NCBI GenBank assembly: GCA_947475445.1
Contig: CANJLC010000005.1
Location: forward strand, 1 to 64,000
Length of the DNA: 64,000 nt
Source: Alphaproteobacteria bacterium
Lineage (GTDB): Bacteria; Pseudomonadota; Alphaproteobacteria; Micropepsales; Micropepsaceae
Direction: 5' to 3'
Shown: positions 1 through 52,302 of the stretch, piece after piece
Layout: every line of letters begins with the position of its first letter
Position numbering within the stretch: the first letter of the stretch is position 1
The notes under the pieces: generated by a model
The model's database searches: none
What the model saw: the letters and a program-made list of their open reading frames with translations, nothing else
What the model was told of the DNA's origin: nothing
Position numbers and translations under genes: made by a program

Positions 1-149
1 GCCACCACTACAACACCGTCAGACCCCATTCATCGCTGGGATATCGGCCACCTGCGCCGCAGGCCTTTATGCCCGCGCCGCCCCATCTAGATCGGGCGGT
101 GTCCATGCAGTAGTCTCATTCACGCTGGTACAAAATATCCGGCAGGCCA
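1..149 (+). mobile_element. Right end of an IS3-family insertion sequence (transposase C-terminus)
   Basis: Positions 3-113 (third frame, stop TAG at 111-113) read as a transposase tail containing HHYNTVRPHSSLGYRPPAP. This is the hallmark C-terminal signature of IS3-family OrfB (DDE integrase) proteins. The next ~36 bases (TCTCATTCACGCTGGTACAA onward) look like the terminal inverted repeat. They finish with CA at 148-149, as expected for IS3 elements (5'-TG...CA-3'). Ku coding sequence begins immediately after. The rest of the element lies outside the window, so subgroup and completeness are unknown. The signature is seen directly; the exact end at ~149 is inferred. Confidence 0.8.
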
Positions 150-804
150 CACCGATCCGGACACCGGTCCGGTTGAGCGCGCCGACCTGGTCAAGGGCTA
201 TGAGATCACCAAGAACCATTATGTCGTGGTCACGCCCGACGAACTGGATTCGGTGAAGCTGGAAACCACCCATGTTATCGAGATCGAGCGCTTTGTGGAC
301 GAGAAGGAGATTGACCGCCTCTACTGGAACGATCCCTATTACCTGATCCCCAATGAGAAGACGGGCGTCGAGGCCTACACCGTGATCCGCGAGGCACTGT
401 CCGAAGCGGGCCGTATCGCCCTGGGACGGGTGGTGATGCACACGCGCGAACGCCTGGTGGCGCTGGAGCCGCGCGACAAGGGCATCCTGGTCTATACCTT
501 GCGCATGGCCGATGAAGTGGTGGAGCCCAGGCATGCTTTCGCCGACATCCCCGCCACCAAGCCTGACCGGCGCATGATCGAGATTGCCCGCAAGATCATC
601 GAGCAGCAGGAAGGCGCTTTCGAGCCGGACAAGTTTGAGGACCGCTATGAGACGGCGCTGCGCGAACTGATCCGCCGCAAGGAAAAGGGCGAAAAACTTG
701 TCACGGCCGAGCCGGTCGAGGACGATAACGTGATCGACCTGATGGAAGCCCTGAAAAAAAGCCTCAAGCAAAAGGGTGCTGCCGGCCGCCGCAAGGCGGG
801 CTAG
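150..804 (+). pseudogene. ku: Ku protein (NHEJ DNA end-binding), N-terminus lost to IS insertion
   Basis: Bacterial Ku forms a homodimeric ring on DNA double-strand ends and recruits LigD. The reading frame is open from position 91 (in-frame stop at 88). It becomes recognisably Ku only from about 151 (TDPDTGPVERADLVKGYEI). It then continues through the typical core (PYYLIP, VIREAL, ALGRVV, KGILVYTLR) to a short Lys/Arg-rich tail (DLMEALKKSLKQK). Full bacterial Ku proteins are usually 250-300 residues, and roughly the first 50-60 are missing here. The first possible in-frame start is a GTG at 226, giving 192 residues without the opening beta-barrel strands, so activity is doubtful. No ligD is seen in the window. 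Family assignment is firm; inactivation is inferred. Confidence 0.85.
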
Positions 805-864: not shown

Positions 865-2904
865 ATGCAGCCTTCACCCCTGGATACCGCACAGGCCCTG
901 CTTCTCTCCGGCCGGCCCGAGGAATCGCTGGCGGCCTTTGACGCGCTGCTGGTCGCCAATCCGGCGGATCTTCACGCCCTGTTTGGCCGTACCAATGCGC
1001 TCAAGATGCTGGGCCGCCTGGCGGAAGCACATGCGGGCTATGACGCCATCCTTGCCAAGATGCCCGGTGCCGTGGGCGCCCTCAACAATCGCGGCGAAGT
1101 CCTGACCCTTATGGGCAAGCCGGAGCTGGCGCTGGCGGATTTTAACCGCGCCCTCCAGCTCAAGCCCGATTTCGTGGACGGCTATTATTATCGCGGCAAC
1201 GCCTTGATCGCCCTCTGGCGCTATGAGGAAGCCCTGGCGGATTTCTCCCGCGCCATTGCCGCGGCGCCGGATTTTGCCGAATGCCATGTCGGGCGCGGCA
1301 TCGCCCTGACCCGCCTGAACCGCCCTGCCGATGCGCTGCCCAGCCTGGACAAGGCCATCGCCATCTGGCCGGACTATGCCGATGCGCATTTTCACCGCGC
1401 CTTGGTGCTGGAGCAGCTGGGCAATCCGGCGGACGCCATAAAGGCCTATGACAAGGTCATTGCCCTGCAGCCATCGTCGCTCGCGGCCATGAACAACCGC
1501 GCGATTGCGCTGCATGGCCTCAGGCTGTTTGCCGAAGCCGCACGCGGCTACGCGGCGTTGGAGCCGCTCGCGCCGGATGTGGCGCTGAACGGGCTGGCCA
1601 TTTGCGCGGCCCATGCCTGCGACTGGTCGCACAGCGAGGAATACCGCACGCGCCTGGCTGCCGCCATACGCGCAGGCAAACCGGCGATCCTGCCCGGCAT
1701 CCTGCTGGCCTATAGCGACGATCCGGAACTCATGCTGGCCTGCACCCGCAATGCCCTGGCCGGCAAGCTGCCGCCGTCGCCCAAACGGTTAGGGCGCGGC
1801 ACGCCATTCTCCGGCGCCAGGATAAAGCTGGCCTATTGTTCTGCCGATTTCCACAGCCACGCCACCTCCTACCTGATTGCGGAGCTGTTCGAACGCCATG
1901 ACCGCAGCCGCTTCGAGGTGATCGGCATTTCATTCGGCGAGGACGATGCCACGCCCATGCGCCAGCGCGTGGTGAAATCCTTCGACCAGTTTCATGACGT
2001 CCGCTTCCGGAGCGACGCAGAAATCGCCGCGCTCATGGCCGATCTGGGGGTGGATATCGCGATTGACCTCAAGGGCCTGACGCGCGAGGCGCGCATGGGA
2101 ATCTTCGCCCATCGTCCCGCGCCGGTGCAGGTCAATTACCTGGGTTTCCCCGGGACAATGGGCGTGGATTTCATGGATTATATCCTCGCCGACGCCATCG
2201 TGCTGCCGTTGGAGCAGCAGGAATTCTATCCGGAAAAAATCGCCCACCTTCCCGATTGCTACCAGGCCAATGACTCCAAACGCGCTTTGCCGGACGCGCC
2301 CACCCGCACGGCCGCCGGGCTTCCACCCAGCGGTTTTGTGTTCTGCTGCTTCAACAACAATTACAAGATCACTGCGCCGCTGTTCGACATCTGGATGCGG
2401 CTGCTCCAAGCCGTGCCGGGGTCGGTGCTATGGCTGATCGAGGATTCGCGCGAAGCCGCCGACAATCTGCGCCGCAGCGCCGCCCAGCGCGGCGTGGCCC
2501 CCGACCGGCTGGTTTTTGCGCCCCGCGCCGCCCCTGACGATCACATCGCCCGTCACCGGCTGGCCGACCTGTTCCTCGACACCCTGCCTTACAATGCCCA
2601 CACCACCGCCAGCGATTCCCTTTGGGCCGGCGTTCCACTGGTGACCTGCAGGGGCAAGGGATTTCCGGGCCGGGTCGCCGCCAGCATCCTGTCCGCCGCC
2701 GGACTGCCCGAATTGATTGCCGAAAACCTGGAAGATTATGAAAAGCTCGCGCTGGCGCTGGCAACGGACGCGCCCCGTCTCGCCGCGCTCAGGAAAAAAC
2801 TGGAAGCCGCCCGCACCACCGCGCCCTTGTTCGACATCGCGCGCTTTACAGCCGGCATGGAAACAGCGTTCGAGCGCATGCGCGACGATTTCCGCAAAGC
2901 CTAG
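865..2904 (+). CDS. TPR protein with SPINDLY/OGT-type O-GlcNAc transferase domain (GT41)
   Basis: The 679-residue protein has about seven N-terminal tetratricopeptide repeats (residues ~5-250; e.g. GEVLTLMGKPELALADFNRAL). A GT41 catalytic region follows (from ~315, KLAYCSADFHSHATSYL, to ~660), including the conserved stretches VCFNNNYKI-like FCCFNNNYKI, DTLPYNAHTTASDSLWAGVP and GKGFPGRVAASIL. These enzymes transfer GlcNAc or related sugars from nucleotide sugars onto Ser/Thr of proteins. ATG at 865 is chosen over a TTG at 820 because homology begins there. It lies 60 bases after the Ku stop on the same strand. Its TAG stop overlaps the convergent glcF stop as CTAG (2901-2904). The target protein is unknown. 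Confidence 0.85.
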   Translation: MQPSPLDTAQALLLSGRPEESLAAFDALLVANPADLHALFGRTNALKMLGRLAEAHAGYDAILAKMPGAVGALNNRGEVLTLMGKPELALADFNRALQLKPDFVDGYYYRGNALIALWRYEEALADFSRAIAAAPDFAECHVGRGIALTRLNRPADALPSLDKAIAIWPDYADAHFHRALVLEQLGNPADAIKAYDKVIALQPSSLAAMNNRAIALHGLRLFAEAARGYAALEPLAPDVALNGLAICAAHACDWSHSEEYRTRLAAAIRAGKPAILPGILLAYSDDPELMLACTRNALAGKLPPSPKRLGRGTPFSGARIKLAYCSADFHSHATSYLIAELFERHDRSRFEVIGISFGEDDATPMRQRVVKSFDQFHDVRFRSDAEIAALMADLGVDIAIDLKGLTREARMGIFAHRPAPVQVNYLGFPGTMGVDFMDYILADAIVLPLEQQEFYPEKIAHLPDCYQANDSKRALPDAPTRTAAGLPPSGFVFCCFNNNYKITAPLFDIWMRLLQAVPGSVLWLIEDSREAADNLRRSAAQRGVAPDRLVFAPRAAPDDHIARHRLADLFLDTLPYNAHTTASDSLWAGVPLVTCRGKGFPGRVAASILSAAGLPELIAENLEDYEKLALALATDAPRLAALRKKLEAARTTAPLFDIARFTAGMETAFERMRDDFRKA

Positions 2905-4193
2905 AGCGAGGCCGGCTTCGGCCCGCCAGTGGCCCAGTCCAGCAATTCGGCGGTATGGATCATGCACGCGCCGCCGCTTTGTCCTTCTTTTGGCGCCAGC
3001 TGCGTCATGCAGCCGATATTGCCGGTGACGACAATCGGCGCCTGTGTTGCGGCGATGTTGCCCAGCTTGCGCTCCCGCAATTGTCCCGACAGCTCCGGCT
3101 GCAGGATGGAGTAGGTGCCCGCCGAACCGCAGCAGATATGGCCTTCGGCAATCTCGCGCACCTCAAAGCCCGCCCGGGCCAAGAGCTCGCGCGGCGCGCT
3201 GCTGATTTTCTGGCCATGCTGCATCGAGCAGGCGGAATGATAGGCAACAGACTGGCCTGCCGGAATGACAGGCGCGTTCAGCCCGATTTGCGCCATGACT
3301 TCAGTAACGTCCTTGCACAGGGCCGAGATGCACGCCGCGCGCCCCGCCCAATCCGGCTCGTCCTTCAGCAGGAATCCATAATCCTTCAGCACCGTGCCGC
3401 ATCCCGACGTCGAAATCACGATGGCGTCCAGCCCGGCGGCCATTTCCTTTTCCCAGGCCGCGATATTGGCCTTGGCCCTTTCCCTTGCGCCGGCATGGTC
3501 GCCCATGTGATGGGCCAGCGCGCCGCAACAGCCCTGTCCCTCAGCCACCACCATCTCCACGCCGTGGCGGGTGAGAAGCCGTATCACCGCTTCGTCAATC
3601 GAAGGCGCCAGCACCGGCTGGACGCAGCCCGACATCAACGCCATGCGAAGGCGCTTGGGACCCTGCGCCGCGAACTGGCCGGGCAGGGCTTCGCGCCCCG
3701 CCTTGGGCAAATGGGCCGGCGCCTGCGCCAGCATGGTTTTCAATTTTTTGGGCAAGGCAAAAGCAATAGGCTTCGCCAGCATCGCAAGGTGCAGGAATGC
3801 GCGAAACAGCCCGCGATCCGACAGCACCCGCACCAGAAGCTTGCGGAAGATGCGTTCGGGCAGTGGCCGGACCTTGTAATCCTCGATCTTCGCGCGGGCG
3901 TGATCCACCAGGTGCATGTAATTGACCCCGGACGGGCAGGTGGTCATGCAGGACAGGCAGGTCAGGCAGCGATCCAGGTGCAGCACCGTGGTCGGCTCAG
4001 GGGCCTTGTCCCGTTCCAGCATTTCCTTGATCAGGTAGATGCGGCCGCGCGGCGAATCCAGCTCGTCCCCCAACAGCAGGTAGGTGGGGCAGGTGGCGGT
4101 ACAGAAGCCGCAATGCACACAGGCGCGCAGCTGCGTGTTCGAGCTGGCTGTCGCGGGATCGGCAAGCTGTGCCGGCGTGAATTTGGTCTGCAT
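2901..4193 (-). CDS. glcF: Glycolate oxidase iron-sulfur subunit GlcF
   Basis: The 430-residue protein has two N-terminal [4Fe-4S] motifs of the CxxCxxCxxxCP type (CVHCGFCTATCP near residue 25, CLTCLSCMTTCP near 75). Two C-terminal cysteine-rich CCG domains follow, with GQGCCGALAHHMGD and GHICCGSAGTYS. In the glycolate oxidase complex this subunit passes electrons from the flavin subunits GlcD/GlcE towards the quinone pool. The start is ATG 4193 (MQTKFT, matching the E. coli GlcF start); an upstream in-frame extension to 4232 has no homology support. GlcD and GlcE are not present in this window, so the partner genes must be elsewhere or a related FAD-linked dehydrogenase is used. Confidence 0.9.
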   Translation of the reverse strand: MQTKFTPAQLADPATASSNTQLRACVHCGFCTATCPTYLLLGDELDSPRGRIYLIKEMLERDKAPEPTTVLHLDRCLTCLSCMTTCPSGVNYMHLVDHARAKIEDYKVRPLPERIFRKLLVRVLSDRGLFRAFLHLAMLAKPIAFALPKKLKTMLAQAPAHLPKAGREALPGQFAAQGPKRLRMALMSGCVQPVLAPSIDEAVIRLLTRHGVEMVVAEGQGCCGALAHHMGDHAGARERAKANIAAWEKEMAAGLDAIVISTSGCGTVLKDYGFLLKDEPDWAGRAACISALCKDVTEVMAQIGLNAPVIPAGQSVAYHSACSMQHGQKISSAPRELLARAGFEVREIAEGHICCGSAGTYSILQPELSGQLRERKLGNIAATQAPIVVTGNIGCMTQLAPKEGQSGGACMIHTAELLDWATGGPKPASL

Positions 4194-4291: not shown

Positions 4292-4843
4292 ATGGCGCAT
4301 GACGTGGTGGTGATTGTGGGCAGCACCCGCAAGGCTTCGATCAATCTCAAGATTGCCAGGGCGCTGGCCGCGCTGGCGCCGGCGTCCATGGCGCTGGACA
4401 TCGTGCCCATCGGCGGATTGCCGCTTTATAACCAGGACCTGGAGGCCGCTCCGCCGCCCGAATGGGTGGCTTTCAAGGCGCGGGTCAAAAAGGCCGCAGC
4501 CGTCCTGTTCGTCACGCCGGAATATAACCGCTCCGTTCCCGCTGCCCTGAAAAACGCGATTGACATGGCCTCCCGTCCCTATGGTGACAGCGCCTGGAAC
4601 GGCAAGCCTGCCGCCATCGTCTCCGCTTCACCCGGTGCGATCAGCGGCTTCGGCGCCAATCACCATCTGCGCCAGTCGCTGGTGTTCCTCAACATGCCCA
4701 CCATGGCCCAGCCCGAAGCCTATATCGGCCATGCCGACAAGCTGTTCGACGACAGCGGCAAGCTCATCAACGAAGGCACCGAGACGTTTTTCAGGACCTT
4801 CCTCGCCGCCTTCGACAAATGGATCGCCGCCAACGCCGCCTAG
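4292..4843 (+). CDS. NADPH-dependent FMN reductase family protein (flavodoxin fold)
   Basis: The 183-residue cytosolic protein opens with the FMN-phosphate loop VGSTRKASINLKIA (residues 9-22). It also carries the family motif FVTPEYNRSVPAALKNAIDMAS (around 75-95), shared with quinone, chromate and azo reductases of the ChrR/YieF type. It should reduce FMN or FMN-bound quinone/metal substrates with NAD(P)H. A clear AAGGAG ribosome site lies about 8 bases upstream. It is divergent from glcF across ~100 bases and convergent with a lipoprotein gene, sharing the CTAG stop at 4840-4843. Substrate cannot be told from sequence. Confidence 0.85.
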   Translation: MAHDVVVIVGSTRKASINLKIARALAALAPASMALDIVPIGGLPLYNQDLEAAPPPEWVAFKARVKKAAAVLFVTPEYNRSVPAALKNAIDMASRPYGDSAWNGKPAAIVSASPGAISGFGANHHLRQSLVFLNMPTMAQPEAYIGHADKLFDDSGKLINEGTETFFRTFLAAFDKWIAANAA

Positions 4844-51231: not shown

Positions 51232-51415
51232 AAGGTGCTCCTGAGACGCGGCAAAAAGCCCCGCGAACCCCATAGATATCGTGCCTTGGACGCCGTCCGG
51301 CAAGGCTTGAAGCAAGGCTGGGGGCCGGGTTTCCGGGGCATGTGTTCCGGGGCGCCTTGGCCATGCACAGGACCGTGCCATAAGGTCGCAATGACTTTAA
51401 GGGCTTAACCCCTCT

Positions 51416-51450
51416 AAATCCCTCGCAAGAATCTGAAACGCGCGGGATTT
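51416..51450 (+). promoter_or_regulatory. Inverted repeat in the coxB leader
   Basis: AAATCCCTCGC (51416-51426) and GCGCGGGATTT (51440-51450) match at 10 of 11 positions around a 13-base loop. The repeat lies 33 bases before coxB in the 252-base tldD/coxB spacer. It could be an RNA leader hairpin or a protein-binding site. No FNR-like box was seen nearby. Confidence 0.4.
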
Positions 51451-51483
51451 TCGCCCGGGCGTGGGCTTTTACGAGGTCGCCTC

Positions 51484-52302
51484 ATGACGTTTCGCAAAAC
51501 CGCGATCAGTGCCGCTCTGCTCACCTTGCTGGCGAGCAGTTCCGCCATGGCACTGCCGATCGACTGGCAGACCGGCTTCCAGGCGTCCGCGACGCCGGTC
51601 ATGGAACAGATCGAGAGCTTCCACCGGGAGCTCTTCTACATCATCACGGCGGTCTCGATCTTCGTGGCCGTCCTGCTGGGCTGGGTGATCATCAAGTTCC
51701 GCGCCAGCGTGAACCCCAACCCGTCCAAGGTGCACCACAACACGCTGCTGGAAGTGGCCTGGACCCTGATCCCCGTCATCATCCTGGTGGTGATCGCGAT
51801 CCCGTCCTTCAAGCTGCTGTATTTTGAATCGGAAATCCCCACGCCTGACGTCACGATCAAGGCGATCGGCAAGCAGTGGTTCTGGACCTATGAATATCCC
51901 GGCGCCGATGGCGGATTTACCTATGACAGCCTCGGCCTGAGCGACGAGGCCGCCGCCAAGGCCGGCAAGCCGCGCCTGCTGGGCGTGGACAACAACATCG
52001 TCGTGCCGGTCAACAAGGTGGTCGAGATCGTGACCACGGGCGCCGACGTGATCCACAGCTGGGCCATCCCGCAGTTCGGCGTGAAGATGGACGCCGTTCC
52101 GGGCCGCATCAACAAGACCTGGTTCAAGGCCACGCAGGTGGGCACCTTCTACGGCCAGTGCTCGGAGCTGTGCGGCGCGCGCCACGCCTACATGCCAATT
52201 GAAGTCAAAGTTGTAAGCGATGCGGAATATGCCGCCTGGCTTGCGGACTCCAAGAAGAAATTCGCCGCCCTCGACGTTCCCACCCGCGTCGCAGCGAAAT
52301 AG
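51484..52302 (+). CDS. coxB: Cytochrome c oxidase subunit II
   Basis: It carries the CuA centre that accepts electrons from cytochrome c. The 272 residues have a signal peptide (to ~23), two membrane helices (~50-72 and ~90-113) and a periplasmic cupredoxin domain with all CuA ligands: His191, Cys226, Glu228, Cys230, His234, Met237 in [16 protein letters not shown]. The aromatic patch [11 protein letters not shown] is intact. No cytochrome c is fused at the C-terminus, so it is an aa3-type subunit. It is the first gene of the cox operon. Confidence 0.97.

Follow-up and report, generated by a model that had tools for sequence, protein, structure and literature searches.

How does a ku gene come to begin, without its front, at the very end of an insertion sequence (IS), and has the lineage that carries it lost NHEJ? 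The distribution of NHEJ among bacteria is patchy, and a loss is as a rule deduced solely from which genes are present or absent; here the scar of what looks like a recent loss is still readable. The gene lies at the start of contig C5 (137,542 bp) of G000, a draft and likely metagenome-derived genome of 2,166,302 bp with a completeness of 98.4% and a contamination of 0.1%. The shortest of its 29 contigs measures 3,095 bp, so that shorter ones may be missing. The stretch of DNA analysed, hereafter the window, covers bases 1-64000 of this contig. A first-pass annotation had proposed extending the sequence upstream to the left end of the IS; window base 1 is contig base 1, and there is no sequence beyond it. 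Among named relatives, the Ku sequences nearest to this one come from uncultured Alphaproteobacteria MAGs, and G009, the sister genome, was used as the reference for the ku-ligD locus. The features of the locus are as follows.

1 to 149, plus strand: right end of an IS3-family element that is truncated where the contig starts; shared with contigs C24, C25, C2 and C1, all of which diverge past 149
3 to 113, plus strand: C-terminal 36 residues of the transposase (OrfB), HHYNTVRPHSSLGYRPPAPQAFMPAPPHLDRAVSMQ, with stop codon; Pfam rve_3, E=3.5e-6
88 to 90, plus strand: stop codon in the ku frame, upstream of the remnant and inside the IS, read from the sequence
124 to 149, plus strand: terminal inverted repeat region of the right end; inverse TGGCCTGCCGGATATTTTGTACCAGC, the left ends reading TGACCTGCATGGCTCTTTTTGTACCAAGC
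150 to 804, plus strand: ku remnant of 217 codons (counted from 151) and a stop, about 80 N-terminal codons being missing; from TIGR02772 and comparison with G009 Ku
226 to 804, plus strand: longest open reading frame with a usual start codon (GTG) in the ku frame, predicted, 192 aa; from the ORF list
865 to 2904, plus strand: TPR/glycosyltransferase family 41 gene, which adjoins ku in G009 too
2901 to 4193, minus strand: Fe-S protein gene, syntenic in G009 and G025; by sequence we take it to be GlcF-like
4292 to 4843, plus strand: FMN reductase-like gene, syntenic in G009; presumably NADPH-dependent FMN reductase-like

The transposase tail and IS end that had been recognised at the contig start were borne out by the translation, the rve_3 match and the presence of five copies in the genome. 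These copies (C5, C24, C25, C2 and C1) are identical or similar up to ...CCGGCAGGCCA and then all differ, which places the IS terminus at base 149. Contig C24 begins with the same 149 bases and C25 with bases 6-149, while the copies on C2 and C1 are 87-90% alike to the IS end at ku. The C1 copy is a right end only; that on C2 is complete (1241 bp), with OrfA (HTH_Tnp_1) and OrfB (rve and HTH_21) both open and in different frames. Its OrfB scored 233.4 bits against NF033516 transpos_IS3 (cut-off 160), and the combination of an OrfA with HTH and an OrfB with a DDE integrase core in overlapping frames, as expected of IS3, is thus present in this copy. The copy at ku retains only the OrfB tail, 86% identical to that of the complete element. 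Imperfect TG...CA inverted repeats are also present, the left end reading TGACCTGC... and the inverse of the right end TGGCCTGC..., with TTTTGTACCA in both. Six left ends, all starting TGACCTGC, were found at contig ends (C12, C23, C19, both ends of C28, and C17). The three right and six left junctions are each identical as a set over about 145 bases, and the IS has therefore spread recently. A plasmid search with the IS end returned only distant IS3 elements, at most 86% identical, and no target repeat was seen at the flanks of the complete C2 copy.

Past the IS, Ku homology starts at 151 (the T of TDPDTGPVERADLVKGYE), one base beyond the element, in nearly all relatives compared. The first-pass annotation had let Ku codons run straight on from about 135, but the residues TKYPAG at 130-147 are encoded by IS bases. 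From 151 to 801 the frame reads as Ku without a break (Pfam Ku, E=3.4e-35). The remnant scores 224.8 bits against TIGR02772, above the cut-off of 150 for membership of the bacterial Ku family, and covers positions 47-259 of 259, so that the gene is indeed decapitated and its core domain lacks 46 N-terminal positions. It is 87% identical to G009 Ku (297 aa) from G009 residue 81, which raises the loss from the 50-60 N-terminal residues estimated earlier to about 80; the missing part includes a basic N-terminal extension common to relatives. The stop at 88, the frame open to 804 and the 192-codon frame from GTG 226, which is the earliest usual start codon remaining, are as had been described. No repeats were found at the IS/ku junction.

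The remnant shows no decay. Among 111 residues invariant in 12 relatives, 110 are kept and one is changed, and dN/dS against G009 is 0.057 (YN00), a rough value given a dS of 1.16. The mean dN to six outgroups, remnant minus intact G009 Ku, is -0.002 (bootstrap 95% -0.022 to 0.019). Because the remnant is undecayed, the loss of ku looks recent, as had been proposed, and a recent loss would account for both the undecayed remnant and the recent spread of the IS. Selection on a short Ku would also fit this pattern, but both the ligase partner and the beginning of the fold are absent.

Such a protein would be expressed with GTG 226 as its start or through a promoter in the IS. The intact frame and the purifying pattern are what a selected short Ku should leave, but a recent truncation yields the same pattern. 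Beyond the 46 core positions absent from the remnant as a whole, translation from GTG 226 would start about 70 positions into the core, giving a fragment of 192 residues that lacks the beginning of the Ku fold, and a scan of bases 1-900 found no sigma-70-type promoter site, although such scans are weak. Together with the absence of a ligD partner, this makes a working short Ku highly improbable, and function of the 192-residue fragment is, by these comparisons, unlikely.

The absence of that partner was consistent across searches: ligD was not found in the G000 assembly with the TIGR02778 profile, with the full G009 LigD protein, or with G009 DNA. The same profile search was positive in 39 of the 69 genomes of the genus. 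The LigD that working NHEJ would have in the same genome is thus missing from G000. An intact second ku, which would have overturned the first reading, is likewise not there, the whole G000 assembly giving a single Ku match, and the N-terminal part of G009 Ku matches nothing in G000 beyond the remnant. The earlier proposal of an NHEJ-minus lineage, strengthened by the absence of ligD, is supported as probable: judged from its gene content, the G000 lineage is most likely NHEJ-minus.

The arrangement before the loss can be read from G009. There, ku lies beside ligD in divergent orientation, with 47 bp between their first ATG codons, and downstream of ku come the glycosyltransferase-41/TPR, Fe-S protein and FMN-reductase-like genes, ordered as in the window. 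Since G009, with ku-ligD intact, is sister to G000 on a Dxs protein tree (support 95/95), the gene pair was most likely present in their common ancestor and disappeared on the branch leading to G000 alone. What is missing comprises the front of ku and ligD, at least about 3 kb if removed in a single piece. On the far side of ligD, the genes of G009 show no synteny in G000 from which the deletion could be sized. The far edge was also sought through synteny, but the genes beyond G009 ligD and those around ku or ligD in relatives point to no left-end contig. Two small G009 genes match C2:183174-183594; these lie inside a contig and without wider synteny, and were rejected as a deletion edge.

We therefore considered how the locus was broken. 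Because ku and ligD are adjacent in G009 and both are lost, an IS-associated deletion fits better than a simple insertion. In the proposed model, the recently amplified IS3-family element would form the boundary of a single deletion that took about 80 codons of the ku front, the spacer between the two genes and the entire divergent ligD, with the undecayed 217-codon remnant left abutting the IS right end. The route, judged from the one IS side present in the assembly, was most likely an IS-adjacent deletion or recombination between two IS copies. We consider it probable that an IS-bounded deletion removed the ku front and ligD and left the lineage without NHEJ.

The first-pass annotation had implied a plain insertion of the IS into ku, under which the ku 5' part and ligD would still be in the cell and have dropped out of the assembly or bin. 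The contig does end in a multicopy IS, where assemblies break, and the three right-end and six left-end contigs do not pair by target repeat, which indicates that some junction contigs are absent. However, the displaced ku 5'/ligD piece with its IS ends would be about 3.3 kb or more, longer than the 3,095 bp of the shortest contig unless another IS cuts it, and in a genome 98.4% complete neither the ku 5' part nor any part of LigD was found. Nor do any of the six left-end flanks carry ku, ligD or the CAC repeat expected of a simple insertion: CAC lies to the right of the IS at ku, and no left flank in the assembly ends in CAC. The missing CAC partner fits a deletion without proving it, as the contig with the partner flank may itself be absent. 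On this evidence a plain insertion is unlikely.

An assembly artefact or a mixed population, with ku-ligD intact in some cells or a false join at the junction, would be conceivable in a draft assembly that is likely metagenomic. However, the junction falls exactly at the IS terminus set by the other copies, and ku is followed by the genes expected from synteny. A false join through a repeat would connect two unique flanks through the IS, not create a new IS/ku border 149 bp into a contig. We regard this explanation as very unlikely.

A deletion at an IS edge would follow known behaviour. IS3-family elements cause adjacent deletions and serve as sites of IS-IS recombination (Ngan et al. 2024, PMC11708052). 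As in that work, the IS lies at the deletion edge, no target repeat was found, and the IS3 family is among the elements concerned; unlike that evolution experiment, G000 is a natural genome in which one IS side only is seen. IS transposition is reported to inactivate CRISPR-Cas in nature (PMC10359306). The case described there resembles the present one in that IS elements brought about the loss, under natural conditions, of a system acting on DNA, and differs in being insertion into cas genes, where the NHEJ locus has most likely suffered a deletion. Among the titles and abstract openings searched, we found no report of IS-caused loss of a bacterial ku or ligD. The kind of event is well known, and the loss in G000 alters no principle; it is new only as a visible scar, perhaps one among several in the genus. 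It points to deletion by a mobile element across two divergent genes as a concrete route, for which other losses can be examined.

The distribution of the genes in the genus was examined in this light. Among 68 relatives, 36 have both ku and ligD, 28 have neither, 3 have ligD only and 1 has ku only; 8 changes in the ku label are required on a Dxs tree of 30 rows. Where intact ku is lacking, genomes are smaller, with medians of 2.9 vs 3.85 Mb (48 best genomes; Mann-Whitney p 0.0015, relatedness ignored). Among the losses inferred in bacteria, the most frequent removes Ku and LigD in one step, and NHEJ is linked to larger genomes (Sharda et al. 2020, PMC7719229). The genus, in which ku and ligD are gained and lost jointly, agrees with that study in both joint loss and the genome-size link, and G000 itself, with the ku front and ligD gone together from a small genome, is of this kind. 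Unlike the losses reported there, which were inferred from presence or absence, the IS-edged break is still visible here.

Two further genomes carry related IS ends at the genes or their neighbours. In G036, which lacks ku, contig C50 starts with a related IS left end (83% over 146 bp), and the last 275 or so codons of ligD follow directly (L239, G036:C50:1-4000, 1-966). This ligD is cut to its polymerase domain, a second and separate decapitation of an NHEJ gene. In G025, which lacks ku and ligD, a related IS left end (79% over 180 bp; L203, G025:C1:200001-215244, last 330 bases) lies at the end of a contig. It precedes by about 130 bp the gene found next to ku in G000 and G009, and the gap between them contains the tail of another reading frame (...GWEQRYVQRGLNGLRVSARRIALPH). 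Two other candidates were set aside: the 'ligD only' state of G014 reflects a polymerase-domain gene that stands alone and has no adjacent IS, and the ligD of G008 is merely split over two contigs. The cases of G000, G036 and G025 suggest that IS-linked loss of NHEJ may recur in the genus, although contigs tend to end at IS copies. That one IS3-family group has repeatedly removed ku-ligD, cutting ku in G000 and ligD in G036 and taking both in G025, is a tentative and rather doubtful proposal; if true, it would point to a preferred target or to selection for NHEJ loss during genome shrinkage.

Two minor observations concern G000 more widely. Solitary IS ends, lacking the remainder of the element, occur on C12 (left end, 51407-51528) and on C1 (right end, 275847-275978), which may be signs of further IS-linked rearrangement in this small genome. 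The TPR/glycosyltransferase-41 family to which the gene beside ku (865-2904) belongs has 21 matches in G000 and up to 28 in one relative, an unusually large expansion in the genus.
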